From: a virus
Reading direction: 5' to 3' (one strand)
Virus record (IMG/VR): IMGVR_UViG_3300006162_000041
Location: 1-28,868 of that record
DNA: 28,868 nt
Shown here: positions 3,908 to 27,105 of the stretch, in pieces
How the letters are laid out: each line of letters begins with the position of its first letter
Numbering within the stretch: position 1 is the stretch's first letter
Program-made: the position numbers and the translations under genes
The notes under the pieces: generated by a model
Database searches by the model: none
What the model saw: the letters and a program-made list of their open reading frames with translations, nothing else
Told to the model about the DNA's origin: nothing

Positions 3908-3908
3908 G

Positions 3909-5528: not shown

Positions 5529-6160
5529 TAGTTTCTCCCCTTGTGTGGGTACAAACCTTTTTCCGAAACCAAGCGCAAAAACCGCTCCACCGGGTCGTTA
5601 CCGGAAGACACGTTGGTCTTAACCCTGGCATCGCTGGCTGACGTCATGTTCTCAGTTCCATTGACCATAAAGTCAGGCGCATTTTGTGGCACAGGAGTTT
5701 GTTCCGGTGGTGCGGTCGGTGGATTGTCTGGTTTTGCTTTTAATCCGCTCGTTGCAGGGCCAAGATTGGCGCCTTGTACCTGGACGGGTGCCGGCGAAGA
5801 TAATTGCGATGGCTGTGCCGGAGTAGAGTTTTGCGCCGCTATCTGTTGTTTAGTGGCGTTATTTTCTTTGGCCTGTAAATCCCTTTGCTGAGCCAAAGAA
5901 TCCTGCCGATCTTGATAAACATCTTTGCCGATAGTCGTACCAATTGCAGCAGCATCTAAAGCAATCAAAGCAGGCGTAGCCGTACCCCAAGTCAATATAG
6001 AGCCAACAATGGTCCCGGCCGTGGCAAGTCCAAGAGCCGTTGCGTCTCCGACATCACGACCCGTGTTATTGGCCGGCTGATAATTGGTAAGCGGCGGAGC
6101 AACCGTACCGGGAGATTGGCCAGCACCTACTGTGCCTGGATTGTTTCCTGGATTGATCAC
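5528..6160 (-). CDS. Ala/Gln/Pro-rich virion protein ending in a truncated S74 motif
   Basis: Encodes 210 residues from a GTG that overlaps the upstream stop (GTGA) with GGGAG seven bases before it. Residues 1-35 are Asn/Gly/Pro-rich. Residues 41-80 are a hydrophobic small-residue segment (ATALGLATAGTIVGSIL) that could cross or insert into a membrane, followed by a Gln-rich helix (85-112) and a Pro-rich linker. The C-terminus carries SDARVKTNV at 176-184, the hallmark beginning of a Peptidase_S74 chaperone domain, but the protein stops about 26 residues later, so nearly all of the domain is missing. The complete domain is in the preceding gene (SDKRIKTNV). I infer a minor internal or tail virion protein. 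Confidence 0.8.
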   Translation of the reverse strand: MINPGNNPGTVGAGQSPGTVAPPLTNYQPANNTGRDVGDATALGLATAGTIVGSILTWGTATPALIALDAAAIGTTIGKDVYQDRQDSLAQQRDLQAKENNATKQQIAAQNSTPAQPSQLSSPAPVQVQGANLGPATSGLKAKPDNPPTAPPEQTPVPQNAPDFMVNGTENMTSASDARVKTNVSSGNDPVERFLRLVSEKGLYPHKGRN

Positions 6161-7407: not shown

Positions 7408-7408
7408 A

Positions 7409-12824: not shown

Positions 12825-14120
12825 TTAGAACTTAACGATGCAATTCCACCCGGGGGCCGAGCACCCAAGCGCAATGTTTACCGCCGCAAGGCGAGCTTCG
12901 TAGGCGTCATCCGTAGACACGCGAAGTGCCATGATGCCGTCAACTTCCTGAACGCCTGGCTTTCCAGAAGTGATAAGGTGCCAAGTGCTCGTGGAAATAA
13001 GCGACGCAAAGCCAGGAACTTGGAAGATAGACTGAGCGAGCGGAACCGCGCCCCAGTCAGTCATCAAGCTGAAATTCGACAGGCCAATTTTCGCCTTGTC
13101 GAGCTTAACGTCAGCCGATCCAACAACCACTTTGGTAGAGGTGTCATTGACGAGCTTTTTCATTTCCTGAGGATGCAAGACAACCAAGTCAAGCTTTTTG
13201 GCCGCTCCAGCAGATTGCACGAGCGAGCAAGCATTGACGAGCGCTTCGGCAACCGAATCCTGATTAGTTGTGTTGTCATAGAACAAGCCAGCAAGCTTAG
13301 CTTTGTAGCTCGAACGGTTTACGCCGAAGAACGAGTCACTAGAAGTGATGGTCGTGTTGTTCGGCGGGCACCAGGATTGGAAGCCCTGCATAACTACTGC
13401 GGTAGAACCTGCCGAAGCGTCTGCAGCGGTGCGGTAGATATAGTCAGTGTTGGCCAACGACGTGATCGAGCTCGACCATGTGGCAGTTGAAAGCAACGTG
13501 CCTTGGTTAAGGTCAATTCCGGTAATAAGAGCCGTACCAGTACGAAGTGAACCACCGTCGGTCTGGCTGAACACCACAACGTCGCCAACCTCGAACATGA
13601 GTACGTCTTGCGTGTTTAGCAGGCCAAGCGGATACTGAGTTCCACCTGACGACGTAACGCTTGCGCTTACGTTGTAACCAACCGCCACCTGAGTGATAGA
13701 GCCAGTACCGGTGCGGTAAGCTTGCGTTGCAATCTTGTTATTCAAGGCAGCAATCGCAAGCTCCATTTCCTGGGTGACGACGCTTTCAAAAGCGTTCTTG
13801 TCGCCCATGGACGCTTGAAGAACCGGGCCCGACCACGAAGCAACCGCATAAATCTGGTTGTAGGTGATCAAAAATGCCTGATTCTTCTGATTGCTTCCTA
13901 ACGACTGAGCGGTCGCAAACGAAGCGCCAACGCGAACGTTGGTGCTAGTCGCAACCGGCAAGCGCCATTGGTAACCGCCGCCATCTTCAATGCGGTGCCA
14001 AGACTTAACGAACGGGTCGTCTGCCCCGTCCAAAATTTCCTGCTCGATGCGGTCGACAGGATAAATTTCCTTCAGTGCAGCGTTAAAGCTCGTACTGTTT
14101 ACTGGAGTTCCGATAGCCAT
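12825..14120 (-). CDS. Major capsid protein (HK97-type fold)
   Basis: Encodes 431 residues; ATG with AAGGGA upstream. It directly follows the scaffold gene, as expected. Features consistent with the HK97-like capsid family: an N-terminal region (NSTSFNAALKEIYPVDRIEQEIL), a strand set with WRLPVATSTNVRVGASF, a long spine helix region (DKNAFESVVTQEMELAIAALNNKIATQAYR, about 105-135), a central domain with LDLVVLHPQEMKKLVND near 310 and a C-terminal part with LITSGKPGVQEVDGIMALR. An 'LvvlHP' block followed by a description of the alternative conformation strand is common in these proteins. Length is in the normal range, with no separate protease domain and no obvious N-terminal delta domain, which agrees with the separate scaffold gene. 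Confidence 0.9.
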   Translation of the reverse strand: MAIGTPVNSTSFNAALKEIYPVDRIEQEILDGADDPFVKSWHRIEDGGGYQWRLPVATSTNVRVGASFATAQSLGSNQKNQAFLITYNQIYAVASWSGPVLQASMGDKNAFESVVTQEMELAIAALNNKIATQAYRTGTGSITQVAVGYNVSASVTSSGGTQYPLGLLNTQDVLMFEVGDVVVFSQTDGGSLRTGTALITGIDLNQGTLLSTATWSSSITSLANTDYIYRTAADASAGSTAVVMQGFQSWCPPNNTTITSSDSFFGVNRSSYKAKLAGLFYDNTTNQDSVAEALVNACSLVQSAGAAKKLDLVVLHPQEMKKLVNDTSTKVVVGSADVKLDKAKIGLSNFSLMTDWGAVPLAQSIFQVPGFASLISTSTWHLITSGKPGVQEVDGIMALRVSTDDAYEARLAAVNIALGCSAPGWNCIVKF

Positions 14121-14132
14121 GTGTTAATTCCC

Positions 14133-15083
14133 TTACATTAGTTTCCCGTGAAGAGCGGCAAACGCTCTTTCGCGCCGCTCTTCCCGGGTTAATGGACGGG
14201 GTTTTTCACCACCGGCCATCGAGTTGGTTAAAGTTGCAGACTTTGCTTTAGACTCGACCTTTGTGGGGGCTTCTTTTGTGGGTGCGGCAGATTTGCCAAA
14301 CTCTTTGGCAAATTTAGCTTGCAGCTTTTTGATTTGCGCCATCTGAGTAGCGCTTTCTTCGTACTCAGACTCCAACATGTCGCACGCTTCTTCGACCGTT
14401 AGTTCTTTGAACGAAGTGATACGGCCTTGGTCGTCTTTTTTGACCGAAGCGTCGAAAACCTCTTTAATCTTGTCGAACACCTCTTGTTCTGCCTTGTAGG
14501 TGCTCAAAAACTCGTATTTTTCTGGATTGGACGCGATGTGCGTTCGGATTTTACCAACATGCTCGGCCACAAGCTGCCGCTGGTGAGACTCGGCAAGCTT
14601 TACGGCCTGCTCGGCCTCGATCTTCTCTTTTTCCGAAAGCTTATGCTCAAGTTCTCTAACCTTTTTAATTACCGGGTTGGCGTCTTCTTCACGCTTGTTC
14701 AATACGGCTTTGACCAAGCCATCGAAATCCATGCCAAGGTCTGACAAGGCAGAGAATGGATCTTCCTTGATCTTGTTGTGCAGTGCTTTTAGGCGTTGAT
14801 ATTCCGCCTGTTGTTCTTTCTGAGCTTCACGCTCGGACCGAAGCGCTTCTTTTTCTGCCGCGATGCGTTTGGCTTCTCTTGCAATCAGAGCCATCTGTTT
14901 TGCGGCCGAATCGGGAGCTTTTTCGGGCGAAGGGTGCGGGGTGTCGGCTTGAGCCGTTTGCCCCACATCGGTTTTGGGTGCTGCAGCCTTGGCTTTTTTG
15001 TCGAACAACTCGCCGACAGCCACAGATTTTGCAGATTCTTTGACTTCTAACTGGGGGTTCAGTGTATTTGTAGTTTGTTCCAC
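14133..15083 (-). CDS. Capsid scaffold protein
   Basis: Encodes 316 residues, highly charged and almost wholly helical. Residues about 60-110 (MALIAREAKRIAAEKEALRSE...) and 130-180 (VIKKVRELEHKLSEKEKIEAEQ) are predicted coiled coils. The C-terminus has a TLTNS motif followed by a Pro turn and a basic helix (REERRERAFAALHGKLM), the arrangement by which scaffolds of this type grip the capsid shell. Location directly before the capsid gene supports the role. The start is a GTG at 15083 with no ribosome site: the bases before it are the T-rich end of the conserved motif at 15080-15107. The next in-frame start candidates also lack a ribosome site and would remove a clearly coding N-terminus. Confidence 0.88.
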   Translation of the reverse strand: MEQTTNTLNPQLEVKESAKSVAVGELFDKKAKAAAPKTDVGQTAQADTPHPSPEKAPDSAAKQMALIAREAKRIAAEKEALRSEREAQKEQQAEYQRLKALHNKIKEDPFSALSDLGMDFDGLVKAVLNKREEDANPVIKKVRELEHKLSEKEKIEAEQAVKLAESHQRQLVAEHVGKIRTHIASNPEKYEFLSTYKAEQEVFDKIKEVFDASVKKDDQGRITSFKELTVEEACDMLESEYEESATQMAQIKKLQAKFAKEFGKSAAPTKEAPTKVESKAKSATLTNSMAGGEKPRPLTREERRERAFAALHGKLM

Positions 15084-15107
15084 ATAAAAAGACGGAGTGT
15101 CGGTCTA
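15080..15107 (-). promoter_or_regulatory. Copy B of the three-copy motif, overlapping the scaffold start codon
   Basis: On the minus strand: TAGACCGACACT, four variable bases (CCGT), then CTTTTTATGTGG. It matches copy A at 22 of the first 26 positions, differing only within the variable four. The GTG start of the scaffold gene occupies motif positions 25-27. No Shine-Dalgarno sequence precedes that GTG. The motif lies 18 bases beyond the stop of the portal gene. If it is a promoter with initiation near its 3' end, the scaffold-capsid transcript would be leaderless or nearly so. Confidence 0.5.
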
Positions 15108-15125: not shown

Positions 15126-17039
15126 TTACCCAAGCTGCAAAGTCGCTGGATTTGGAGCTATTGGTGCTTGAGGAGGCCCTGTCGGTCCTGCGCCGGGAGG
15201 CGGAGGTTGTCCGCCAGGCGGAGGCATCGCTTGTGGCGGCAGAGGGCCGGCTTGCATTGGCGGTTGAGGCGCAGGCGCAGGCGATAAGATTTGCTTTAGC
15301 TGCACGATATACTGTGACAAAAGCGCTAGACGGTCGTCTGGCGCCCCATCATACTGAGCCTTTGCGTAAGCTTGCAAAACTAACGTAAGCTGCTGCTGTG
15401 GGTCGATAAGCGCATCGGGCCCTTCAAAGCCCTCTTCGCCATAGTCCAAGATGTTGTCGATGATCTGATAGATGCGATCCTGCACGGCCATCATGGGATC
15501 AATGACCGAATCAACATCAGGATTGGCAATCAAGCGCGGAATTTGAAATGGAGCTAACACACCCATGGCCTGCAGGTCCGTCAGATATTGGAGCTTGCCG
15601 GGTACCTGCTTGGGCAAGGACGAAACCGAATTAGCCTGAAGCACGTAGGCGTCGTCGTCCAAGTCTTCCGAAACTTCTTTCCAATGCGCTACTTCGAGTC
15701 CTGACCGACCAGGAAGACTAACCTCGTAGTCGCCATCTTCGTCCGAAATCTCTTTCATCAAAGCAATGGCCAACTTGGCATCGTCGACGAATAGCTCTTC
15801 GTATGCTAGGGACGGGTCCGAAAGGCGGTCATCTTGAATATTATCGACGGCTTCTACAGCGACAGCGGCAGTGATGCCGGGCTGCTTCACACCGGATGCC
15901 GCCTGTTGGCCAATACCTATGATCTCATAAGACTTTTGAAGGATGTAGTCGAGATGAGTATAGACTTCCGGCGGGATGATTTGCTGCGTCAAAATTTCTG
16001 GTTTAACGGTGCTCATGATGACGCCGCCGATATCCCTGGTGAACTTGTCGGGGTTGAACTGGCTTCCTGGAGTCGCCCATATCTTGGGGTTGGCCAGGCT
16101 TACGAGCGACTTGTCGATGATCTTTAAGAGGCGATTGATCATCACCTGGTTGCGCACAAGCTGGCTTGCAACCGACTCTCCCCACGCCCCCATGGGCTTT
16201 TTCTTGTAAATGTACTGGGTGAACGGGAAGTAGTCGCGCGAGTATTCTTCTTTCAGCAGCGTTGCATTCTCGATGATGATGGCATGCACGCCGTCGGTCT
16301 TTTCGCCATCTTCGACTTCATAAGACGGCAGACGCCACGCTTCATGCACCTCGATGATGTCATGCACGTACTTACTGCCGACCTGCTGATTTCCGGTCCG
16401 CATCGCTTTGACGTCTTCTATGAGCTTTAGGTTCTTGAACCCTAGCCGCTTGGCTAGGTGCATGAGCTTGTCGCGGTTTAAGTACTTGGTGCGATAAATT
16501 GCCCGCGGGTTACCAAGCATGGCCTCGGACGGGTCGACGGACATTTCAACCGGGAATACCCGCTCACATTTGACCTTGCCGTTTTCTTTATACCAGTGCT
16601 TCCAAGCATTTCCGTAAATGGCCGCATCCAGCACCTGCTGGCGGTTCATTTCGTAAATCTTGTTCTGGTAAAAAATGCCATCGATGAATTTGTTAAGCTC
16701 TTTGGCCTTGCGACGTTGCAGCCAGTCTCCCGATTTGGTGACGAACTCTACCGCCGGCCGGGTAGTACCTGAAATGCGACTTTGCAGCGTATCGCAACAC
16801 GAAGCAATGACGTTGAGCGTCGAAGCATCGAACGACTGCATGACGTTGGCAATCGTACGGTAAAACGCATATGGGCCAAACGCCGTTACGGGCTGATTGG
16901 CATATAGGCGGTGATTGCGAAGTAGTTCGTTAACGTGCCCCTGATTCTCGACCTTTAAGTAGGCCAGATATGGGTACAGCGCCGAATGCAGGTCTTTTTC
17001 GTCTTGCTCGTACCAGTAGGACGTATGAAAGGAGGCCAC
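15126..17039 (-). CDS. Portal protein
   Basis: Encodes 637 residues, normal for the large portals of short-tailed phages. The N-terminal half contains a portal core with an early helical block (SFDASTLNVIASCCDTLQSRI), then KSGDWLQRRKAKELNKFIDGIFYQ and AIYGNAWKHWYKENGKVKCER, in which an 'A.iyG.aw..wy...G.v..erv.P.e...DP.ea' run at about 150-195 is typical of portals. Later come NRLLKIIDKSLVSLANPK and the stem/wing helices. Residues about 588-637 are a Pro/Gly/Gln-rich tail, probably disordered. It forms the dodecameric vertex ring through which DNA is packaged by the terminase. The GTG start has no ribosome site and lies at positions 25-27 of the motif at 17036-17063, as for the scaffold. Confidence 0.9.
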   Translation of the reverse strand: MASFHTSYWYEQDEKDLHSALYPYLAYLKVENQGHVNELLRNHRLYANQPVTAFGPYAFYRTIANVMQSFDASTLNVIASCCDTLQSRISGTTRPAVEFVTKSGDWLQRRKAKELNKFIDGIFYQNKIYEMNRQQVLDAAIYGNAWKHWYKENGKVKCERVFPVEMSVDPSEAMLGNPRAIYRTKYLNRDKLMHLAKRLGFKNLKLIEDVKAMRTGNQQVGSKYVHDIIEVHEAWRLPSYEVEDGEKTDGVHAIIIENATLLKEEYSRDYFPFTQYIYKKKPMGAWGESVASQLVRNQVMINRLLKIIDKSLVSLANPKIWATPGSQFNPDKFTRDIGGVIMSTVKPEILTQQIIPPEVYTHLDYILQKSYEIIGIGQQAASGVKQPGITAAVAVEAVDNIQDDRLSDPSLAYEELFVDDAKLAIALMKEISDEDGDYEVSLPGRSGLEVAHWKEVSEDLDDDAYVLQANSVSSLPKQVPGKLQYLTDLQAMGVLAPFQIPRLIANPDVDSVIDPMMAVQDRIYQIIDNILDYGEEGFEGPDALIDPQQQLTLVLQAYAKAQYDGAPDDRLALLSQYIVQLKQILSPAPAPQPPMQAGPLPPQAMPPPGGQPPPPGAGPTGPPQAPIAPNPATLQLG

Positions 17040-17063
17040 ACTGAAAGCTTAAGTGTCGGTCAA
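17036..17063 (-). promoter_or_regulatory. Copy C of the three-copy motif, overlapping the portal start codon
   Basis: On the minus strand: TTGACCGACACT, four variable bases (TAAG), then CTTTCAGTGTGG. The first block matches copies A and B at 11 of 12 positions; the second block is more diverged (CTTTCAGTGT against CTTTTTATGT) but keeps exact spacing. Motif positions 2-4 are the TGA stop of the GT-B gene and positions 25-27 are the GTG start of the portal, so the signal is squeezed between and into two coding sequences. It would drive portal and downstream head genes if it is a promoter. Confidence 0.45.
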
Positions 17064-18010
17064 GCGAACAGCTTTTGCCACTGCGGGACGATGTCCGACT
17101 CCAAAAACATCTTGTGCGGGACTGGCTTAAACCTTGACGGATCCAGTCCGAAAGCGTTCATGCTGTTTTGGAACCTTTTTGGGTCGTCTGTTATGAGTGG
17201 AGAGTTGCAAAGCTCCGAGAGTGCATCCTTCCCCAGTGCTTGAAATACAAAAACGTTCAGGCCCAGAGCTTCCGCGAAGACTTGTGCCAACCCAAAGGTC
17301 TCCCTGAATGGCATCACCATTAGCATGCTTCGGCATGTTTGATATTCATCCATTACTTCCCTAAAAGGTAAAGCACCCAAAAACTCCACGCCTTCGTACT
17401 TCACTTCCTTGGGTAGGTCGTACCCGGGATTGAGTACCTTTAATGTGGCGTTTTTGTACTCTTTAGTCTGCTTCATGCTTGAGAAAAATTCTAGCGTCTG
17501 ACGCAATCCCTTCATCGCAGCCGAAGCATAAATGAATGAATGCTCTTTGGTGTTTCTATTGCGCTTGCGATCGTACAAAGCGTTTGGAACGATAAAGTTG
17601 ATCACGCTGCGTTCGTGGTCCTCAGACAATAAGCCTGCCTGAAATTCACTCAAGCAAACAATATGCTCGGATGTTGGGTAGTCGCCATGAGCATCGGTGA
17701 TCCATCGCAACACTTTTTTGTATTCAATGTGCTTAGTGTGCGGCACGGGCGTCGAGCGCTCGACGATGAGCGTACCGCACGAAAACTTCTCGAAAGCCAT
17801 CATATCGATGGGCAGATAATCTACGCCTCGCACCTTGCACCAGCTTGGCATCCTATTCATGCAAGCCACTTTCATCCCGGCCTTAGTCAATGCTTCAGCC
17901 AAAACTATCTGCTGCATCTCTGAGCCACCAAGACCGCCCCACCGCAACGTGTCGCCGGCGAACGTTACCCCAACGTTGTCGAAAATTATTATGTCAAATG
18001 TCATTGTCAT
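17060..18010 (-). CDS. GT-B fold glycosyltransferase (GT4-like)
   Basis: Encodes 316 residues; its ATG overlaps the stop of the methyltransferase gene (ATGA), so the two are co-translated. An N-terminal Gly-rich loop (GGLGGSEMQQIVLAEALTKAG, about 26-46) matches the donor-loop region of GT4 enzymes ('GG.e.q...lA..L...GhkV'). A middle linker region (VCLSEFQ, VPNALYD) and the C-terminal nucleotide-sugar site (ETFGLAQVFAEALG, 237-250, the EX7E-like motif) complete the fold. At 316 residues it is slightly shorter than typical bacterial GT4 proteins. It would transfer a sugar from an activated donor; the acceptor (capsid, tail, DNA or host surface glycan) is not evident. Being between terminase and portal suggests a virion-related substrate, which is inference. 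Confidence 0.85.
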   Translation of the reverse strand: MTMTFDIIIFDNVGVTFAGDTLRWGGLGGSEMQQIVLAEALTKAGMKVACMNRMPSWCKVRGVDYLPIDMMAFEKFSCGTLIVERSTPVPHTKHIEYKKVLRWITDAHGDYPTSEHIVCLSEFQAGLLSEDHERSVINFIVPNALYDRKRNRNTKEHSFIYASAAMKGLRQTLEFFSSMKQTKEYKNATLKVLNPGYDLPKEVKYEGVEFLGALPFREVMDEYQTCRSMLMVMPFRETFGLAQVFAEALGLNVFVFQALGKDALSELCNSPLITDDPKRFQNSMNAFGLDPSRFKPVPHKMFLESDIVPQWQKLFA

Positions 18011-18771
18011 ATCTGCGTCAGGTTCGTTTTGATGTTTCGTTCAGTCGGAATGCAGACGATATTGGTTTCGATATAACCTTCGCTGATGTCTTCCTTGTTG
18101 TTCTTGAAGTTGTTTTCGTTGAACATCTTGGTGGCGTGCAAAAACACGTCATATCTAAACTCTTTGACCTTCTTGCAAAGTTTTTCGATGTTTTGCTTGT
18201 GCGCTTCGAGGTACATGATTGGACGCAACTCCGAAATGGTCCGCTCCGCCCCGCATATCATGTCGTATTCCATCCCTTCTATGTCCGCCTTGAGCAAGTC
18301 ACAGCGCTTGAGTTGTAATGAGTCAACCGAAACCATGTTGACGATATACCCCCCTTTGTCGTCAATCTCACTACCAGGAACAATGACAGCCGCTCCGAAA
18401 TTGTTTTCTTTCGCTGTAAAATCCGTATTCCTAGCAATAGCTGGCCCACAACACGCGCCAACCGCCGCCTGAAGCGTGACAACATTCGGTAAGTCGTTAA
18501 CCACCACATTCGCACAGAGCAGTTGAAACACGCGCATCTGTGGTTCGAATGCGAATACAACGCCGTCTTTGGCCTTCTTTGCAAAATACACCGAGTGCGT
18601 ACCAATGTTGGCTCCTACGTCCACAATCCAGTCGTCGTCGCGAATCATCTTACCAAGAGAAGAAAGCTCGGCGTCTGCCCATTCGCCATACTTGTCTAAG
18701 TTGCGGCCAATGACCGAATCATTGTCCATGATGAACATGTTTCCGTGTTTAGTGTTTACGAGTGTATTCAT
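18007..18771 (-). CDS. FkbM-family SAM-dependent methyltransferase
   Basis: Encodes 254 residues from an ATG at 18771 that overlaps the upstream stop (ATGA); a TTG two codons earlier is also possible. The SAM-binding motif I is VDVGANIGTHSVYF (about 50-63), followed by the acidic end of strand 2 (VFAFEPQ), NDLPNVVTLQAAVG, the family block VDSLQL...LLKADIEGMEYDMICGA (motif with DIEG near 165-170) and a final IMYLEAHK strand. These are the FkbM hallmarks; members O-methylate sugars or small molecules. The adjacent GT-B gene suggests that it methylates a sugar which that enzyme transfers or has transferred. N-terminal and C-terminal ends are complete. Confidence 0.88.
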   Translation of the reverse strand: MNTLVNTKHGNMFIMDNDSVIGRNLDKYGEWADAELSSLGKMIRDDDWIVDVGANIGTHSVYFAKKAKDGVVFAFEPQMRVFQLLCANVVVNDLPNVVTLQAAVGACCGPAIARNTDFTAKENNFGAAVIVPGSEIDDKGGYIVNMVSVDSLQLKRCDLLKADIEGMEYDMICGAERTISELRPIMYLEAHKQNIEKLCKKVKEFRYDVFLHATKMFNENNFKNNKEDISEGYIETNIVCIPTERNIKTNLTQI

Positions 18772-18983
18772 GGCCAATCCGTAAATGGGTTAATAAAATC
18801 TCCGAAACGGTAAACGTAACCGCATATCTTTAATCTAATACGATCAAACCATCCCCACGGTCGCGGTTCGGTCCGTGCTATTGGCACATCACGACTGAGT
18901 CCAAAAAACTCATTATCGGCAATGTCTCCGGATTTAACCGGAGGCAACCACGCGGATATACCTCTTAACTCGTCGTCGCTCAT
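18768..18983 (-). CDS. Hypothetical small protein
   Basis: Encodes 71 residues; ATG with GAGGA six bases upstream, inside an ATGA overlap with the gene before it, and the stop overlaps the methyltransferase start. These ties on both sides are the best evidence that it is real. The sequence is polar at the start (MSDDELRGISAWLPPVKSGD), then basic and aromatic (RPWGWFDRIRLKICGYVYRFGD). I recognise no domain. Confidence 0.65.
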   Translation of the reverse strand: MSDDELRGISAWLPPVKSGDIADNEFFGLSRDVPIARTEPRPWGWFDRIRLKICGYVYRFGDFINPFTDWP

Positions 18984-19201
18984 TGGTGGTCCTCATCGTC
19001 GGGGTCTTTTAAATCTTCAGGGATGTCGTACCCATACAAGTCTTCGGTGGTGGGTGGAGCGTCGAGCTTGGACAAGTCAATCGCAATCCGCTCTTGCGGT
19101 TCGGGTGCCCAAAACACAACCTGTAGACCATTGTAGCTAAACGACTGAATGCCGGCCTCTTTGGCCCACCGTGTAAACGTTTTAGCTTCCTCAGTCGTCA
19201 T
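18980..19201 (-). CDS. Hypothetical small acidic protein
   Basis: Encodes 73 residues; ATG with GGAG six bases upstream, overlapping the last 11 bases of the large terminase gene and ending in an ATGA junction. The N-terminal half is a helix and strand (TEEAKTFTRWAKEAGIQSFSYNGLQVVFWAP); the C-terminal half is acidic and Pro-rich (PPTTEDLYGYDIPEDLKDPDDEDHQ). Small genes with this look often accompany terminase in phages, but I cannot assign a function. Confidence 0.7.
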   Translation of the reverse strand: MTTEEAKTFTRWAKEAGIQSFSYNGLQVVFWAPEPQERIAIDLSKLDAPPTTEDLYGYDIPEDLKDPDDEDHQ

Positions 19202-20645
19202 TCATGCTCCAGTCGAAATTGTCATCGTCAAAGCCGAGCGGGTCTCGGTTCTTCGCGTTCACTTTGTTTACGGCGGCCTCGATCATCTTTCGCTCCTCCT
19301 CTCGCGCTATTTCAAGCGCTGTCATAGGCCTTGGCATTTCGGACTTATTGTGCCAATTGTATACGTGTGTATACGCGTAAAGACAAGCGTCCGAAAGGTC
19401 GGCAGGGAAACTCTCCGACTCCCGAGTTCGGTCTTTGTTCCATTCAAGAACCGACATCTGTTCGAAGGTTTTGGATCCTATGGGGAACAGAAATGTTCCT
19501 TGATGGATTGCTGAATTCAGCACGTCAATGTGAGCCCTCTTGCCCGGCTTGTCGGCTGACTCAAGAGGCAAGGAGTGCATTTGTTTCATTGATTCTACCA
19601 ACTGCTTATTCGCCGGATCAATTACCATCGAGGCTTGCGGATATGCTTGGTGAGTGCGCTTCAGCTCTCCAGCTAACGCATCAAAAAGCACACCAGATTT
19701 TGACCATTCGTGAGCAATGTATACCTTGTTCGTCACGCGCGAAGCTGCCAAAACGACAATCGCGGAAGCGTCATTAAATCCCGTATCCGCCCCGATAGTG
19801 TAATCGAACGGCTCGTCAGGCAACTTCACGTAGCGATTGCGTTCGCTGTCCAGCTGGTAAAGCAGTGAATCAACGTCACGTATCCACGACCCAAGATACT
19901 CGCGCTTGAATTTGACCGACGGCGTACGTTCTTCGACGCTGTCTAAGTACGCCTTAGCGATTATTTTCCAGTCGGGGCGGTTGGCCCACTGCGGAATCCT
20001 AGGATTGTCTAGGACCGTCCAGTGCCAGTTTTTCCATTGCCCGGTTTTGTCGTGGGCGGCCTCGTAGAACGCTCCCGCTGCAGTTGGCGACGGAGTGCCC
20101 GCAAGCACAAGTGTGCCATCGTAATCCAAAAGCGCGGCTTGCAATACGTCTTCAAGTAGGTAGCCAAGGTAAGCTCCGAATGAGCCGACTTCGTCCGCGA
20201 TGACGATGTGATACGGAAAGCCACGCAATTTCTCCCGTTCGTCTGTGCTTGATACGCCGCCAAAGATTATCCGCGAATCGACGTCCGTAAACGTTACTTC
20301 GTGGCGCAGGTTGTCGACCTTTACACGTAACGCCAGTCGCTCACAATAACGGACCAGTTCTTTCCATAGCAGAGCAACGGCGTATGGCTTGGTAAGTGCC
20401 ACATATAGACAATTGGCACGCTCGTGCTCAAGCGCCGTTTTAACAAGATAGCGCGAAAGGGCATGCGTCTTCCCTGCTCGTCGACCACATACCAAAGTCT
20501 TGCGCTTATGCGGATCTTCGATGAACGCAATCTGTAGGCTAAACAGGTCAGCACGCAACGACGATGCTGCCCGGTCGCGCGAGTCCTGAACGAATAATCG
20601 GTGCGCAAGAAGCGCCTTATCGAGCGCCTCATCGACCGCAGACAT
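19191..20645 (-). CDS. terL: Terminase large subunit (packaging ATPase-nuclease)
   Basis: Encodes 484 residues, normal length for TerL. The ATPase domain has Walker A CGRRAGKT (53-60), Walker B IVIADE (146-151) and the coupling motif AGTP (181-184). The RNase H-like nuclease domain has its acidic residues in GADTG (D286), VIDPA (D342) and PADLSDACLYAY (D415/D418). It docks on the portal, pumps DNA into the prohead and cuts concatemers. The ATG shares TAATG with the stop of the upstream gene and has no strong ribosome site. All catalytic residues appear intact. Confidence 0.95.
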   Translation of the reverse strand: MSAVDEALDKALLAHRLFVQDSRDRAASSLRADLFSLQIAFIEDPHKRKTLVCGRRAGKTHALSRYLVKTALEHERANCLYVALTKPYAVALLWKELVRYCERLALRVKVDNLRHEVTFTDVDSRIIFGGVSSTDEREKLRGFPYHIVIADEVGSFGAYLGYLLEDVLQAALLDYDGTLVLAGTPSPTAAGAFYEAAHDKTGQWKNWHWTVLDNPRIPQWANRPDWKIIAKAYLDSVEERTPSVKFKREYLGSWIRDVDSLLYQLDSERNRYVKLPDEPFDYTIGADTGFNDASAIVVLAASRVTNKVYIAHEWSKSGVLFDALAGELKRTHQAYPQASMVIDPANKQLVESMKQMHSLPLESADKPGKRAHIDVLNSAIHQGTFLFPIGSKTFEQMSVLEWNKDRTRESESFPADLSDACLYAYTHVYNWHNKSEMPRPMTALEIAREEERKMIEAAVNKVNAKNRDPLGFDDDNFDWSMNDD

Positions 20646-20896
20646 TAAGAGTGCTTGGAGGGTTCTTTGACACTTTGAAACTTGCTCTGGTCAAGGTCGG
20701 AAGCAAAATCAAAGTTGGAGCAGTGCATCCAAAACTTTTTCATCTTCTTTCCGCCTTCAAACGGCGTAAAGTGCACAAGCCCAGTGTCTTCGTTGAGCAC
20801 CATAACGCACTCTTGGTACGTAAGCGTCGGACCGATGCTGCCCGGAGTCTGCACGCCGTTTTTAACCCGGACCTTCTCTAGAGGTATCTTAGCCAT
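20645..20896 (-). CDS. Hypothetical protein upstream of terminase
   Basis: Encodes 83 residues; ATG with GGGAG eight bases upstream, overlapping the previous gene by eight bases and sharing TAATG with the terminase start. The sequence is small and mixed (GSIGPTLTYQECVMVLNEDTG, FTPFEGGKKMKKFWMHC), compatible with a small beta domain. No family is recognised. Confidence 0.7.
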   Translation of the reverse strand: MAKIPLEKVRVKNGVQTPGSIGPTLTYQECVMVLNEDTGLVHFTPFEGGKKMKKFWMHCSNFDFASDLDQSKFQSVKEPSKHS

Positions 20897-21323
20897 TGAA
20901 CGTACTCCCTTTGTGGTTCACGTATGGGTTGAACAAAAAGTTGTAACCTTTGTCTTTGATGAGCTTCTCGACAACGACCGTCAGGCTGGAAATGAAGATG
21001 TTGCTGTTTACAGGGTCGATGCCGACCGACTCCCAAAGCCGTTTTTGTAAGCCAAGATTGCGTTCTTCTCGCCGAGTCCAACACCAGTGAACGATAAATG
21101 CGCTCTCGGTGCTTTCATAAACGAGAACGGCTTGAAGCTCGCCGTCCTTATCGCAATCAACGGCAATATTTGAATGCTCCAGCACGTACCGAAAGCACTC
21201 CGGCGCAAACAGCGCAAACGCGGCCTCTTCCATGCCACGGTTGGCAAATATCTTCGTGCGGGCGAAGGCCAGCCACACACGCAATATCTCTTCCTTTTCG
21301 TGCTCCGAGACTTCAGTCTTCAT
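20889..21323 (-). CDS. Possible GNAT-like acyltransferase
   Basis: Encodes 144 residues. The pattern of helix, central strand (LQAVLVYESTESAFIVHWCW), a helix beginning RREERNLGLQKRLWESV and a later strand-helix (NIFISSLTVVVEKLIKDKGYNFLFNP) resembles the GNAT acetyltransferase core, with 'R...nlGlq..L' near the acetyl-CoA loop. A canonical Q/RxxGxG/A loop is not clear, so activity is uncertain. GNAT-like proteins of this size are found near the terminase in several short-tailed phages. The start overlaps the previous gene by 11 bases. Confidence 0.6.
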   Translation of the reverse strand: MKTEVSEHEKEEILRVWLAFARTKIFANRGMEEAAFALFAPECFRYVLEHSNIAVDCDKDGELQAVLVYESTESAFIVHWCWTRREERNLGLQKRLWESVGIDPVNSNIFISSLTVVVEKLIKDKGYNFLFNPYVNHKGSTFNG

Positions 21324-21495
21324 TTTTCAGAATCTCTTTGGCCACACCCTGCAGGTACTCGTTCACGTGACGGTCGAACGGCCATTCGAGATTGAGCTTG
21401 CGCGTGTATCCGAGTATCTTGCGCGACATCTTGATGCGCTCATCCATGCGCACCTCGGCCACCGTCATGCGCTTAGGTTTTATTTTCTTCATCAT
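21313..21495 (-). CDS. Small basic protein, unknown function
   Basis: The chosen start is the first of two consecutive ATGs (21495, 21492) located inside the end of the upstream gene, giving 60 residues (MMKKIKPKRMTVAEVRMDER...). The frame is open further upstream, but that part reads like an antisense or shadow sequence of the neighbouring gene. The protein is basic at the N-terminus and helical afterwards (KMSRKILGYTRKLNLEWPFDRHVNEYLQGVAKEIL). A small DNA- or protein-binding role is possible, but nothing is recognised. Confidence 0.6.
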   Translation of the reverse strand: MMKKIKPKRMTVAEVRMDERIKMSRKILGYTRKLNLEWPFDRHVNEYLQGVAKEILKNED

Positions 21496-21838
21496 TGGGC
21501 GGCGCCTCGGGGTCGATGGCCCTCGACTTGATGCGGGCAATCAACTCATCGGTTGATAAGTTCCGGATCTCCGGAGGAATGAAGCTTTCTGCCGTCTCGA
21601 TTTGCGTGGCCGTGGCGCTCTTGCCATATCCGCCTTCAACTAGAAACTTGGCAGCATTGACGCGATGCACCCACGGAACCTTTGGGTCTGTGGCTGCCTC
21701 ATAGAGCACCTTAAAAGCATCTTCGGATGCGGCCTTGCACTTCTCCCGAAACATGCGCACCGACAGCGGCGGCTTTTTGTAAGGAGTGTTCTCGCCTGGC
21801 TTTTTGGGTATCAGCTTGCCACCGATGTGTCCTGGCAT
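21473..21838 (-). CDS. Terminase small-subunit candidate
   Basis: Encodes 121 residues; the ATG overlaps the upstream stop (TGATG). Residues about 25-75 have the helical block MFREKCKAASEDAFKVLYEAATDP, then HRVNAAKFLVEGGYGKS, which resembles a segment seen in phage proteins annotated as small terminases or terminase-associated DNA-binding proteins ('A...L.e...d....R..AA..lL..gyGK'). A basic N-terminus (GKLIPKKPGENTPYKKPP) could contact DNA. It lies five genes upstream of TerL rather than directly next to it. The other candidate for this role is the HTH protein at 22265-22702. Confidence 0.65.
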   Translation of the reverse strand: MPGHIGGKLIPKKPGENTPYKKPPLSVRMFREKCKAASEDAFKVLYEAATDPKVPWVHRVNAAKFLVEGGYGKSATATQIETAESFIPPEIRNLSTDELIARIKSRAIDPEAPPNDEENKT

Positions 21839-22272
21839 CAGACAGCCTCACTGAGGAATACAAAAAAACCGTCTTCAGTCTGCTCCACGTGGAAGCCAAC
21901 TTTAACGAAATGGTCGATGCACGCCTTTTGGTAACGGTCGACGCGGTCGCCTTTGGCTTTGGTTTTCAGCTCGACAAAATCGGCTCCGTATGCGGCATGC
22001 TGGCGAATTTCGAGCTCGGTGTTTTTGATGAAGTCTGGCAACCGCTCGTTGAAGCGCCTGGTCGAAAACTCGATTAACGCTTGCGGTGTAAACGGCAGCT
22101 CGTGGGCTTCTTTCATCGCCGCCGACATCACCTCTTTGTCTAATTGCTCGGGAGTCCTTGCAGGCGCAGGCGGAGGTGGTGCGTCACCCGGCGCCGGGCC
22201 ATCCGCCTGTGCCTGTAAGGACTCCTCCGTGTTGTCAACGATTAGGGCATCTACTTCGTCTTCGTTAAGCAT
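21838..22272 (-). CDS. Hypothetical protein
   Basis: Encodes 144 residues; ATG with a strong GGAGG six bases before the start. N-terminal acidic segment (MLNEDEVDALIVDNTEE), Ala/Pro-rich linker (PAPGDAPPPPAPARTP), then a helical and mixed domain (STRRFNERLPDFIKNTELEIR, ADFVELKTKAKGDRVDRYQKACIDHFVKVGFHVEQTEDGFFVFLSEAV). I recognise no family. It overlaps its upstream neighbour by eight bases, in keeping with operon expression. Confidence 0.7.
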   Translation of the reverse strand: MLNEDEVDALIVDNTEESLQAQADGPAPGDAPPPPAPARTPEQLDKEVMSAAMKEAHELPFTPQALIEFSTRRFNERLPDFIKNTELEIRQHAAYGADFVELKTKAKGDRVDRYQKACIDHFVKVGFHVEQTEDGFFVFLSEAV

Positions 22273-22702
22273 TGTTCCTCCATTTTTTTTGTTCGTTCAC
22301 GACGTGCTCTAGCACCTCGGTGCTGCTTACATACTCGTCCGGAATGTCCGAGCGATTGCGCGGACGTATATTTTTAAGCCAGCGCATCATCTCTGCACGC
22401 ATCAGTTCGATTCTGTCGGCAACGGTGTGCCAGTTGATGCCGAGTTGTCGTCCGATCCTGCGTATAGACACGCCCTCGCAGTGTAGGGCCCAAACGTCAG
22501 GGTAAGCGGGTATTCTCTCCAACGAGTAGGCCACGCACACAGAGACGTAGTCGTAGTTGTCGACATGTCTGGGTCGTACATTGTCCGGTCGCGTGTAAGC
22601 GATAGTTCTACCGCGTACCGTGTAATAGCCATCAATCGACGCAAGACCGTCTTCACGTAATCTGTCCTCCCACTCCGCCAAGAGTTCCAACGGAGGAATC
22701 AC
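22265..22702 (-). CDS. Helix-turn-helix protein (regulator or small-terminase candidate)
   Basis: Encodes 145 residues from a GTG in a GTGA overlap with the glycosyltransferase stop, preceded by AAGG. A helix-turn-helix is visible at about 70-102: VWALHCEGVSIRRIGRQLGI, then WHTVADRIELMRAEM, similar to sigma-factor region 4 and transposase-type HTHs. The N-terminal half has no recognisable domain. Placed between a glycosyltransferase and the terminase group, it may be the DNA-recognition subunit of the terminase or a late-gene regulator. If the repeated motif is a promoter, this is one of few DNA-binding candidates in the window to act on it. Confidence 0.72.
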   Translation of the reverse strand: MIPPLELLAEWEDRLREDGLASIDGYYTVRGRTIAYTRPDNVRPRHVDNYDYVSVCVAYSLERIPAYPDVWALHCEGVSIRRIGRQLGINWHTVADRIELMRAEMMRWLKNIRPRNRSDIPDEYVSSTEVLEHVVNEQKKWRNNA

Positions 22703-23751
22703 GCTGCCTTGGGTCTGCCGCGTCCGAAAATGTCCGAGTTGTCGTACTGCTCGTAAAGTTTTTTTGGGTCGACCGTGAAGTGCGTGTAGTGCTGCACGTG
22801 CTCAGGTCTAATCGTGCGCGTAACAGGGTCACACAGCCATTCAGGGCCGTAGTAGCCACCGGTCTTGAAGTCGCAATGGATGGCCACCATGCCAGGGATG
22901 ATGTGAGTTTTGATGCCTGATAGCAGCATTTGCCGACAGAAGTGGCTGTCCTCGCCAAGCATCAAGCGCCCCTGACTGCCGTCGGGATTGGTCTCGTGCG
23001 TGAACTTAAACCAGGGTTTAGGTGTTTTGCGCAGGGTCTCGACGTCGACAAGCAATGCGCCTAGGCCAAGGCAATTGACATGCTGCGGCGTGAGATTGGT
23101 CGGATCGTCTGCGCTGACGGACTGGTTACGCCACACGTCGCGGTTGCTCGGTTCAAGACGAGTGGCGATTGATTCTAGGATGGGAGTTTTCTTTACGTAG
23201 TTCAGGCCTACTGCTTCGAGTTCAAGGCTAAGGAGGTAGTCTATCGCCCGTAGCGGGATGAGCGTGTCCTCGTCCAAGAAAAACACATGCGAGTAGACGT
23301 TAGAAGCCAGAGCTTTCTCGGCAAAGTAATTTCGTGCCTCGATGTGGTCGAGGCCGAAACATTGGTCGGACTCTGCACGAATGGTCTGTGCGGCGATGAT
23401 CCCGCCCAGGTTTGGCGGCTGCGAGCCGTCAGGCAGGTGCTGTACACGCTGTGGGCAAGCCACCACCACGCGTAACTGGCGGTAGAAGTAGTTCTTGCAT
23501 AGCGTCAGGACCGCTTGTATGTGCCACTGCGCTTGATAATCGTCATAGGCGTCAACGAACGCGTTGGCACGCTTCTTGCGGTTGTACTCAAAGCAGGCCT
23601 CAATGACCGGTTTTAGTTGCTGCAGCCCATCCTGTTTGGGCTCTCGACGCTGCAGAATGGTCGAACACCAGCGAATGTCGTCAGGCGATACCGCACCCGT
23701 GGCGTTAATCTCCCGCAGAACCTGCCGGCATAGCTCGACTCTATCGTACAT
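22699..23751 (-). CDS. GT-A fold glycosyltransferase (GT2-like)
   Basis: Encodes 350 residues. After an N-terminal extension of about 90 residues comes a nucleotide-sugar domain: strand RVVVACP (94-100), a helical region with SDQCFGLDHIEARNYFAEKALAS, the DxD-type metal and nucleotide site VFFLDEDTLIP (156-166), acceptor side GLGALLVDVETL (229-240) and the catalytic block LGEDSHFCRQMLLSGIK (265-281), typical of GT-A enzymes in phages. It ends with a His-containing segment (VAIHCDFKTGGYY). It is likely to be metal-dependent and inverting, but donor and acceptor are unknown. Its stop overlaps the next gene by GTGA. It is the first of three modification enzymes in this operon. Confidence 0.85.
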   Translation of the reverse strand: MYDRVELCRQVLREINATGAVSPDDIRWCSTILQRREPKQDGLQQLKPVIEACFEYNRKKRANAFVDAYDDYQAQWHIQAVLTLCKNYFYRQLRVVVACPQRVQHLPDGSQPPNLGGIIAAQTIRAESDQCFGLDHIEARNYFAEKALASNVYSHVFFLDEDTLIPLRAIDYLLSLELEAVGLNYVKKTPILESIATRLEPSNRDVWRNQSVSADDPTNLTPQHVNCLGLGALLVDVETLRKTPKPWFKFTHETNPDGSQGRLMLGEDSHFCRQMLLSGIKTHIIPGMVAIHCDFKTGGYYGPEWLCDPVTRTIRPEHVQHYTHFTVDPKKLYEQYDNSDIFGRGRPKAA

Positions 23752-24540: not shown

Positions 24541-24713
24541 CTACTTCCCTACCTTCTACCTTACCTCCATTTTTTCCTACGCGGGCCTGTATAATACTAC
24601 TACTACTACTACTATACCTATATATATATAGGTAGCTAAGGTAGAGAGGTAGTGTAGTGCTTTGAATTTAGGAGCTTTTTTTCTCACTACCTTTACCCCA
24701 ACATCCCTACCTC
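24541..24713. other. Candidate replication origin: AT-rich core with short iterons
   Basis: The stretch 24466-24706 has no gene. Within it, CTACCTT repeats occur in tandem at 24549-24555 and 24556-24562, again at 24687-24693, and CTACCTC at 24707-24713. Inverted copies (AAGGTAG or close forms) are at 24630-24635, 24638-24644 and 24646-24652. Between the two arms lie six TAC trinucleotides (24595-24612) and a TA-rich palindrome (24615-24634). Iterons flanking an easily melted core next to helicase and primase genes are the classical origin layout. No DnaA box is obvious, and a transcriptional regulatory region is the alternative. Confidence 0.5.
24615..24634. repeat. 20-bp perfect palindrome with TA-repeat core
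   Basis: The arms are TACC and GGTA around a run of alternating T and A; the whole 20 bp is self-complementary. It can form a cruciform or serve as a melting site. It abuts six tandem TAC units on its left, and on its right its GGTA arm is the beginning of an iteron-like GGTAG at 24631. Confidence 0.85.
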
Positions 24714-26428
24714 GCCATCCAAAGCCACCTGTTGCGCTTAGCAATTTTGTCGAAATGTTGCCTTTTTACCCATCCAATCTCTTTCAGGCAACTCGCAATC
24801 CTCATTTGTAGACCCCTATCGACCTTGGAGGTCGGGATATCAAAAAGGTCGCTAAGTACCTCGACGGTGCTTACACAAGTCTTATTCGGGTTCTCTTCGA
24901 GCCACTCTTTTATCTTGGTCACCCATTCGTCCTCAAACCTTCTGGCCGACTGCTCCGCCTCCGCCATGGCCACAACGCGTTGCTGGTCTATGTAGGTAAT
25001 CTCCCCACCTTTGTACCTACTGACCGCCTCAGCCCACAATTGGTCTCGGGTCTGTTCGTCGAGCGGTTGAGCCGCATTGGCACACACGACCGGCCAGAAT
25101 CGACGCGCTCCCGTCTCGTCCTTAAGATATCCGTTAGCGCCCGGGTTGACTGTGCCAGCGAACACGCATGCCCTCGGGCGAGTCACCGAGCGCCGGCCAT
25201 AGGCCGGGCGGTAGGTCTCTATGTCGCGCGTGGCGAATGATTTTACAGCCGTGACCTCGGCGCGGTTCATGGCGTCGAGTTCGGCCAATTCGACAATCCA
25301 TTTCCCTTCTATATTCTCCGCTTGCGACTTGCTGCCGACCTCGCCAATGTTGTCGCAAAACCAGTCCTTGATTGGGCATAGTTTGGTCAAAAATTTGCTC
25401 TTACCAAACCCCTGGCCGCCCTCTAAGATCAGGATATAGTCGCATTGACAGCCTGGGTTGTAAGCCCGACCAATGGCCGACAAAAACCACTTCGAGGTCA
25501 CCGCCCGCACATATTCGTTGTCAGGCGAGCCAAACCGGTCAATGAGCACAGTGTCGACCCGTGTCACTCCATCCCATTTGAGGCTGTCTAGGTATGCTGT
25601 GACGCAGTTAACGCGGTTTTGGCTGGCGACGGCCTCGACGGCCCTGCGGACGTTTTCTATGCCTGGGCGCAGCGTTGTGTGGCGCTCAAACCACGTCTGC
25701 ACTCGCGTGTCATCTATGTCGCTCCATTGCGTGTCGTGGCGCTCGAACGGCACCGACCCCTGCACCACAATGCGGGTTAGGAATGTGTCGTAGGCCAGCG
25801 AGCCAGCCCACGCGGGGTGAGAAGACAGATAGACGACTAGGTTTTCCACGCATTCCTCTATGACAATTTTGTCGCGGATTGTTTTGCGCAACAGCTGCGA
25901 CTCCCATCCCGGCTCATCTCCTGCAACTGCAACGCGTAAATTCTGCAGGGGCGGCACGGCCGGCGCAACCGTTGCGCTGGTTTTGCTGGTTTTGCTGGCG
26001 CTATCGCGCTCGACAATGAAGCCACTTCTCAGCTGACCATTAACGGCATCTGCGGCCTTGTGCTCTAGCTCGAGCTCGCTCCATGGTGGCTGACAACGGG
26101 TATTGTAGTGCCGCAGAACCTGCATGATGCCGGCCTTGTCTAGGTCAAAACCTTTGGCAGCCACCGCCACGGCCCAAGTGGCTTGATGGCCACCATTGCC
26201 ACTAATGGCGGCCGGCATTTTATCCACATAGGCTATCGCCCTCGATAGATTATCACTGCCTGACGTCAGATCCGGACGCGAGAGTTCTGTGTCCGAAATT
26301 ACCGGGGAAATTTCCCCCGCCATTGACTCCGCCTCCGGGACCGGTTGCGGCTCCTCATCCGCCCAGCGGGCTAGGCCTTGATTGTAAAGCTCCTGCAAAA
26401 ACGGGTCGAGCTTCGGGCGGTCTACCAT
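24707..26428 (-). CDS. VapE/VirE-family P-loop ATPase, probable replicative helicase
   Basis: Encodes 573 residues; ATG with AGGAGG eight bases upstream. Residues about 60-130 (LSRAIAYVDKMPAAISGNGGH, RCQPPWSELELEHKAADA) match the PriCT-like linker domain that joins primase to helicase. The VapE domain (about 250-480) contains CVTAYLDSLKWDG, Walker A EGGQGFGKS (336-344), Walker B VELAELD (379-385), a sensor region (SFATRDIETYRPAYGR) and an arginine-finger candidate in GARRFWP (440-446). Such proteins act as helicases in phage replication. The next gene upstream encodes the primase domain, so the usual primase-helicase fusion is split here. A C-terminal winged-helix-like segment (CVSTVEVLSDLFDIP) may bind DNA. 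Confidence 0.9.
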   Translation of the reverse strand: MVDRPKLDPFLQELYNQGLARWADEEPQPVPEAESMAGEISPVISDTELSRPDLTSGSDNLSRAIAYVDKMPAAISGNGGHQATWAVAVAAKGFDLDKAGIMQVLRHYNTRCQPPWSELELEHKAADAVNGQLRSGFIVERDSASKTSKTSATVAPAVPPLQNLRVAVAGDEPGWESQLLRKTIRDKIVIEECVENLVVYLSSHPAWAGSLAYDTFLTRIVVQGSVPFERHDTQWSDIDDTRVQTWFERHTTLRPGIENVRRAVEAVASQNRVNCVTAYLDSLKWDGVTRVDTVLIDRFGSPDNEYVRAVTSKWFLSAIGRAYNPGCQCDYILILEGGQGFGKSKFLTKLCPIKDWFCDNIGEVGSKSQAENIEGKWIVELAELDAMNRAEVTAVKSFATRDIETYRPAYGRRSVTRPRACVFAGTVNPGANGYLKDETGARRFWPVVCANAAQPLDEQTRDQLWAEAVSRYKGGEITYIDQQRVVAMAEAEQSARRFEDEWVTKIKEWLEENPNKTCVSTVEVLSDLFDIPTSKVDRGLQMRIASCLKEIGWVKRQHFDKIAKRNRWLWMAR

Positions 26429-26955
26429 GATGCGGCCTCCTGCACTGTGACGCCATTACCCCACATGTCTGGCACGGCCCATGCGTCTTTAAAATCATAG
26501 CGCTCGCCGCTAGGGTGAATTGAGGGGGGCGCAATGACGTAGCCGCCCTCCGCTTTCATGTCGATTCCCGGCAGCCAATTGCTCTTGCTGCGAATGAGCA
26601 TGTTTTTAGGCAATGGGCAGTACAGGTGCCACCCGCCCCCGCCAGTGATAATTGGCCAACTACCCGGAACGTCGCGCACGTCCGAAATTTTGCCCCCATT
26701 GCGCGGGTCGACGTCGATTACATACAGGCCGCTAACGACACCCGTCGCGATGCCTATGTTGTACTCCGGGCACTGCGACCACCATTTGACTATCTGGGAG
26801 CGGGACTTGGTAGCGTCCTTGAAGCCGTGTTTTGTCGCTGGCAATTTGCTGCGTGGCTTGCACGGGAACACCGCAAACCCGTAAAAATATGCGTACTCTA
26901 CTGCATAGTCCGCTAGCTCCCATTTACTACCCCTCGTACCGGTAAACTTTGACAC
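26422..26955 (-). CDS. Stand-alone bifunctional primase-polymerase (Prim-Pol) domain protein
   Basis: Encodes 177 residues from a GTG at 26955 that has GGAGGG seven bases upstream. The reading frame is open 36 codons further, but that part has no start signal and an unlikely composition. The Prim-Pol catalytic signatures are intact: YVIDVDP (metal-binding D81, D83), GGGGWHLYCP (H110) and GIDMKAEGGYVIAPPSIHPSG (D132 and GGYVIAPPS). It should synthesise primers and possibly DNA at the replication fork. It ends just inside the start of the VapE gene, so the pair is translated together and together corresponds to the primase-helicase of many mobile elements. Confidence 0.9.
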   Translation of the reverse strand: MSKFTGTRGSKWELADYAVEYAYFYGFAVFPCKPRSKLPATKHGFKDATKSRSQIVKWWSQCPEYNIGIATGVVSGLYVIDVDPRNGGKISDVRDVPGSWPIITGGGGWHLYCPLPKNMLIRSKSNWLPGIDMKAEGGYVIAPPSIHPSGERYDFKDAWAVPDMWGNGVTVQEAASW

Positions 26956-27105
26956 GCTGCATCCCTCCAGACGCCCAAAATGAGTGCGGGCACCACCCCG
27001 GAGGCCCGCAAAGGTCCGAAGTGATGCCCGCGTTTCTCGCCGACATCCGTGAGGCGCCGGCAAGGCTTTAATTTTTAATGTGGGTTGCGGGCCGACATTG
27101 GCAGC
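26956..27105 (-). other. Untranslated leader of the Prim-Pol gene
   Basis: No credible gene lies in this 150-bp stretch between the -10 candidate at 27106-27111 and the Prim-Pol start. It holds a GC-rich hairpin (TGCGGGC at 26985-26991 pairing with GCCCGCA at 27004-27010, 12-base loop) just upstream of the ribosome site, and a TAA-rich segment at 27067-27079. The hairpin is not followed by a T-run, so it is not a standard terminator; it could influence translation of the primase. It may be incidental in a GC-rich stretch. Confidence 0.35.

Follow-up and report, generated by a model that had tools for sequence, protein, structure and literature searches.

Why does a virus carry two glycosyltransferases (GTs) and a methyltransferase among the genes for packaging its DNA and building its head? 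The question is raised by the IMG/VR record IMGVR_UViG_3300006162_000041, a viral DNA of 28,868 bases that was analysed over its full length (hereafter the window). All of its main genes are on the minus strand, and as it has no terminal repeats it is possibly a fragment. A first-pass annotation had recognized a GT-A enzyme, a GT-B enzyme and an FkbM-type methyltransferase among the terminase and portal genes, and had proposed that they decorate the virion, or a host glycan, with a methylated sugar. All three genes (here called GT-A, GT-B and FkbM) are indeed long minus-strand open reading frames (ORFs) with the coordinates assigned to them and with terminase and portal genes as neighbours. 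They do not form one contiguous block: GT-A lies upstream of the putative small terminase (TerS), while FkbM and GT-B are inserted between the large terminase (TerL) and the portal gene.

The best explanation of this arrangement, which we give somewhat better than an even chance, is glycosylation of the virion with a methylated sugar. Two of the enzymes are identified with confidence and the third weakly, FkbM and GT-B are coupled, all three sit in the late operon, and both modules (GT-A and the pair of a GT with FkbM) recur in head operons elsewhere; what is predicted from these data is a virion protein as the acceptor, the sequence in which the sugars are attached, and the placing of the methyl group on a sugar.

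Identity of the three enzymes

Residues 152-294 of GT-A match the phrog_1574 profile (E = 2.2e-9), a family labelled as being of unknown function. The protein itself has no Pfam match, and its relatives match the Pfam models Anp1, GT21 and GT2. In 48 aligned sequences D160 and D162 of the DxD motif, E267 and D268 of the catalytic ED and the C-terminal H321 are invariant; as the relatives were retrieved with patterns holding one or other of these motifs, only their joint conservation is informative. The GT core starts at about residue 93 and is preceded by a helical extension of 92 residues, which is absent from most relatives. Structure prediction, which the annotation had recommended for the enzymes, succeeded for this one: the AlphaFold2 model built with the 48-member alignment is confident in its core (mean pLDDT 71, with 81 residues reaching at least 90), and its top Foldseek matches are all GTs, namely LH3 (2.9e-8), A197 of Sulfolobus turreted icosahedral virus (STIV; 4.7e-8), COLGALT1, mimivirus R699 and Mnn9. 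There are 57 matches in the PDB at E ≤ 0.001, and nearly all of the 50 listed are GT entries; one structural match in the viral library, a phage protein, bears the name FkbM methyltransferase. GT-A is thus firmly identified as a GT-A fold glycosyltransferase of PHROG 1574.

The assignment of the second gene to the FkbM family of methyltransferases is firm. The protein matches TIGR01444 (2.3e-27; 96.2 bits against a curated cut-off of 37.7), PF05050 (5e-17; 63 bits against 22.7) and phrog_8156 (3.3e-21), and the VDVGANIG motif for binding of S-adenosylmethionine (SAM) is present in the alignment. Its start is likely the ATG at 18771 rather than the TTG at 18777. The putative target is a sugar hydroxyl, which would undergo O-methylation, and other substrates of FkbM enzymes exist.

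The third enzyme is probably a GT4-like glycosyltransferase, to judge by weak sequence resemblances. GT-B has no PHROG match, and the sequence of the record alone does not match the Pfam GT4 models (PF00534/PF13692) even at E ≤ 1. Its C-terminal domain weakly resembles WbaZ-1 (E = 0.005), the comparison with VpsD gave E = 0.0026, below the cut-off, and a single match (2.1e-7 per genome) was found in 385 metagenome-assembled genomes (MAGs) titled Alphaproteobacteria. The protein matched there (L190) is 38% identical to GT-B over 68 N-terminal residues and resembles PimA-type GT4 structures in its own C-terminal part. The EX7E motif is altered: in RETFGLAQVFAEALG the first Glu is kept and the second stands at +10 instead of +8, which reads as EX9E in an ungapped alignment. 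The single-sequence AlphaFold2 model, made without homologues, was poorly folded (pLDDT 36) and was not used. A single-sequence scan of genome contigs with GT-B returned no relatives, and a match on an Azospirillum plasmid was discarded, as it covers only 82 residues where no gene is annotated. Of the families named in the annotation, FkbM and GT-A therefore stand firm, and the GT4-like label of GT-B does so only weakly.

The annotated coupling of FkbM and GT-B directly before the portal gene is borne out by an ATGA overlap of the two genes. On inspection no Shine-Dalgarno sequence is evident for GT-B itself, which is consistent with translational coupling to FkbM.

Surroundings of the relatives in other genomes

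When IMG/VR was scanned with the single sequences of TerL, GT-B and GT-A, no relatives came up, hence the search required alignment queries. The survey of GT-A, made with an alignment seeded from a phage type that carries the gene after its capsid gene, comprised 80 IMG/VR loci plus annotated records. The gene lies between capsid- or scaffold-side genes and the tail connector in 57 loci and between TerL and portal in four more; ten have structural genes recognized on one side only and another ten have none recognized within four genes. These classes add up to 81 loci in which GT-A was called (a separate count gives 82 GT-A genes); in three further loci the gene is uncalled. In the metagenome-assembled MW202711, MW202496 and MW202462 it comes just after the capsid gene, and in a methanogen virus just before the tail genes. 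Five bacterial or archaeal contigs (L175, L176, L177, L178, L186) hold a homologue in a region resembling a phage head or packaging module. The surroundings of several alphaproteobacterial loci are not phage-like, so that the PHROG 1574 family may also exist outside phages. Three alphaproteobacterial MAG contigs (L174, L183, L184) have tandemly duplicated GT-A homologues with no recognized phage genes around them, possibly a cellular branch or the donor of the family.

For FkbM, 80 IMG/VR loci were collected by alignment search. In the five closest relatives (L094-L098, 40-32% identity) the gene overlaps the next one downstream, which encodes a transferase: the partner has a weak GT9 match in L096, L097 and L098, belongs to the same family in L095, and in L094 begins with a methyltransferase-11 domain, after which comes a region that by eye is like GT9 proteins. 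Four of these five FkbM genes are located beside portal or terminase genes: between the portal and a phrog_334 capsid gene in L094, directly after a portal fragment in L096, and downstream of TerL and portal in L095 and L098; in L097 tail-fibre genes are nearby, and a GT4 gene immediately precedes FkbM. More distant loci show the orders TerL-GT(phrog_1962)-FkbM-portal (L163, L164) and GT-FkbM-portal (L172), the latter being the slot used in the window, and L114 has TerL-portal-..-FkbM-ATGA-TPR/GT9-scaffold-MCP (MCP, major capsid protein). The TPR-repeat and GT9 protein that FkbM overlaps in L114 (7805-10002) has an architecture like that of eukaryotic O-GlcNAc transferase; the label 'OGT-like' was not adopted for bacterial loci, where the likeness is probably mere TPR similarity. 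Overall, a recognized head gene was found within 8 kb in 14 of the 80 FkbM loci and a recognized GT adjoining FkbM in 15, counts that derive from a small reference set missing divergent proteins, the 14 including loose MCP or TerL labels (L152, L169) that we do not rely on.

The partners of FkbM bear on the main rival explanation, according to which a glycan of the host surface (lipopolysaccharide (LPS) core, O-antigen or capsule) is modified at a late stage of infection, so that superinfection or the binding of progeny to debris is blocked. Because the transferases next to FkbM in related phages include several with matches to GT9 heptosyltransferases, an LPS-core family, this explanation keeps some weight; besides, phage DSL-LC06 has FkbM beside heptosyltransferase-, sialyltransferase- and KpsC-like genes, and for the glycosyltransferases of pelagimyophages the authors favour modification of the host O-chain (PMC7029224). 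However, the trio lacks membrane segments and is accompanied by neither a flippase nor a polyprenol transferase, and for a seroconversion module the sites of FkbM and GT-B (between TerL and portal) and of the relatives of GT-A (between capsid and tail genes) would be odd. On balance we consider a host-surface target unlikely, though worth keeping in sight.

The annotation had asked whether the trio is kept together in related phages, and it is not. PF05050 was found in only four of the 49 GT-A-carrying records (MW202462, G014, G017, G022), most GT-A phages being without FkbM in the sequence at hand; a fixed three-gene unit was accordingly rejected, and GT-A and the GT-FkbM pair are kept separately. 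In those four, FkbM follows, with an overlap, a DXD glycosyltransferase (PF04488 in MW202462, homologues of it in the others), and this pair, whose GT is of GT32 type, lies upstream of the terminase genes, with GT-A after the capsid gene. Another phage lineage thus combines GT-A with a GT-FkbM pair, though its second transferase is a different one, and it looks as if GT-A supplied the base activity and the pair an optional extension. The separate occurrence could also mean that GT-A and the FkbM-GT-B pair are unlinked morons, acquired separately, with different targets and only a late promoter in common. The three genes are indeed non-contiguous, and their GC contents differ (GT-A 56%, FkbM 47% and GT-B 49%, with 52-53% in portal, capsid and TerL genes). 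Set against this, the pair and GT-A co-occur in four other phages and FkbM adjoins a GT-A homologue in L104, which leaves independent acquisition distinctly improbable in our estimate.

Possible targets and known counterparts

If virion glycosylation is the correct reading, the three genes would make up a late-expressed cassette. GT-A would move the first sugar from a host nucleotide-sugar onto a head or tail protein in the cytoplasm during assembly, GT-B would add a second one, and FkbM would O-methylate the terminal sugar and so cap the glycan; the resulting coat might mask or tune the particle surface, with effects on adsorption, stability or recognition. No gene for nucleotide-sugar synthesis was recognized in the record, hence the host would supply the sugar donors. 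All three proteins are soluble, with no transmembrane or hydrophobic segment, and no flippase, membrane GT or polyprenol transferase was seen near the genes; together with the late operon and the lack of a recognizable base-hydroxymethylation gene, this favours an acceptor that is met during assembly. GT-A retains all its catalytic motifs, and its model matches the protein-glycosylating LH3 and COLGALT1 as well as STIV A197.

Base-modification genes matter for another alternative, namely that the enzymes glycosylate hypermodified bases of the phage DNA as an anti-restriction coat. GTs with such a role are well known in phages (cited in PMC12619734), and the terminase and portal neighbours act on DNA. 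No thymidylate-synthase-like, hydroxymethylase or other base-modifying gene was recognized among the scanned ORFs, which is not decisive as the record may be incomplete. The fold of GT-A matches protein-modifying enzymes, not the DNA glucosyltransferases of T4 type, which have a GT-B fold. We regard a DNA target as very improbable.

Several observations weigh against virion glycosylation. GT-B, which has a changed EX7E motif, is weakly identified; the synteny of GT-A comes largely from one phage lineage, collapse at 50% identity leaving 13 lineages, seven of which have recognized structural neighbours; many relatives of FkbM lie outside head modules, and few GT-A records have FkbM at all. None of the phages with these enzyme families is known to bear a glycan, and the position in an operon tells of timing, not of target. 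The annotation had taken the late block as favouring a virion target: the embedding in the late operon holds, as do the relatives in head and packaging modules, and the virion target, the sugar and its methylation are predictions built on these.

The phenomenon is of a known kind (Corndog, STIV, PBCV-1). Glycosyltransferases in the structural operon have been tied to virion glycosylation in mycobacteriophages (PMC4351075, PMC12363180); the latter reports Corndog, Che8 and Myrna as glycosylated, and capsid modification was proposed for the Corndog-type cluster of an O-methyltransferase and three GTs (PMC4351075). This cluster (cluster O; overlapping genes in the order portal-methyltransferase-GT-GT-GT-protease-MCP) resembles the window in having a methyltransferase and several GTs in the head operon beside the portal gene. 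Homology was nevertheless rejected on comparison with Firecracker of cluster O, since the PHROGs and Pfam families differ: its methyltransferase is of TylF type (phrog_6608) and its GTs belong to phrog_4447, 1721 and 854, whereas the window has FkbM of phrog_8156, phrog_1574 and an orphan GT-B. The enzyme set is therefore new. A064R of Paramecium bursaria chlorella virus 1 (PBCV-1) joins a GT-A rhamnosyltransferase, a second GT and a methyltransferase that form the methylated end of the capsid-protein N-glycan, and its triad of activities, placing two sugars and a methyl group on the capsid glycan, is proven (PMC9614988). The same three activities are predicted in the window; A064R is a single three-domain protein of an algal virus, and the window has separate genes of a tailed phage. 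STIV has a glycosylated capsid protein and an essential A197, whose acceptor is unproven (PMC10551542); this small GT-A enzyme of an archaeal virus is among the top structural matches of our GT-A (2c0n, 4.7e-8, TMt 0.66), with 18% identity and in a virus and capsid of a different kind.

Among the closest counterparts are the PHROG 1574 proteins of uncultured phages (for example MW202711, MW202496, MW202462 and vir323), which are homologous GT-A enzymes with the same invariant residues in a structural module. They are mostly stand-alone genes after the MCP gene, unlike the window GT-A with its position upstream of the putative TerS and its N-terminal extension. In DSL-LC06 the FkbM, which has a heptosyltransferase-like gene next to it, falls in the same PHROG as that of the window, and TerL is distantly related; its sugar cluster is much larger. 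In this 30-kb lake phage (L002, OR003941), heptosyltransferase-, sialyltransferase- and KpsC-like genes, FkbM and two GTs occupy one stretch (1732-9017).

The useful new point is that PHROG 1574 is tied to the head module. We would go further and suggest, at a little short of an even chance, that the family comprises widespread head-module glycosyltransferases. In uncultured phages and at least one methanogen virus they would act on capsid or tail proteins, and the glycan would be extended and methyl-capped by interchangeable GT-FkbM pairs. Demonstrations of glycosylated phage virions come from only a few systems, mainly mycobacteriophages, in which the glycans influence immune recognition; if the suggestion is true, virion glycosylation would be common outside them. 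A family that has recognizable catalytic residues and is found again and again between the capsid and tail genes of uncultured phages would allow glycosylated phages to be predicted and the purpose of the coat to be tested, and a PHROG now labelled unknown would gain a function.

Gene layout and further features of the window

The genes of interest are collected in Table 1 in the order of transcription. Portal, MCP, GT-B and a protein of 1058 amino acids gave no tblastn match in phage records, thus no close relative of the phage was found.

Table 1. Features of the window from the Prim-Pol gene to the putative major capsid protein gene
Feature	Position	Strand	Basis and remarks
Prim-Pol	26422-27063	-	Part of interest begins here
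VapE-type helicase	24707-26428	-	Followed by two small ORFs before GT-A
GT-A glycosyltransferase, PHROG 1574	22699-23751	-	phrog_1574 2.2e-9, invariant residues, AlphaFold2 core, Foldseek
GTGA overlap, GT-A stop / helix-turn-helix protein start	22699-22702	-	Read in sequence
Helix-turn-helix protein, putative TerS	22265-22702	-	Weak helix-turn-helix Pfam matches below cut-off; place before TerL
VRR-NUC-like protein and small ORFs	Between putative TerS and TerL	-	Transcription order
TerL	19191-20645	-	phrog_2 1e-39; followed by two small ORFs
ATGA overlap, stop of 71-aa gene / FkbM start	18768-18771	-	Read in sequence
FkbM-family SAM methyltransferase, phrog_8156	18007-18771	-	TIGR01444, PF05050, VDVGANIG SAM motif
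ATGA overlap, FkbM stop / GT-B start	18007-18010	-	Read in sequence
GT-B, probably GT4-like glycosyltransferase	17060-18010	-	WbaZ-1, VpsD, alphaproteobacterial relative; EX7E altered to EX9E
Portal protein	15126-17039	-	20 bases past GT-B; PF23899 1.6e-8, phrog_332 8e-12, phrog_156 2e-6
Putative scaffold protein	14133-15083	-	Position; charged coiled-coil-like sequence
Putative MCP	12825-14120	-	Size; place after portal and scaffold; no family match

The sequence GACCGACACT occurs exactly three times on the minus strand (1133-1142, 15096-15105, 17052-17061), the latter two copies immediately before the scaffold gene and the portal gene; it was rejected as a signal there, as chance accounts for it (17 of 100 shuffles). 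Two VRR-NUC nuclease-like proteins are encoded in this small genome (21838-22272 and 27130-27561, both on the minus strand), one of them, a weak match only, inside the packaging block. Further along the minus strand, a Peptidase_S74 intramolecular chaperone domain forms the end of the product of 6157-7407, and a short stretch at the end of the next protein (5528-6160) resembles the start of that domain (SDARVKTNVSSG versus SDKRIKTNVKPG), like a truncated copy. The gene at 3909-5528, on the same strand, encodes several near-perfect copies of a short repeat at the N-terminus of its product (DASQMQMGKPSIFDN / SSFES).

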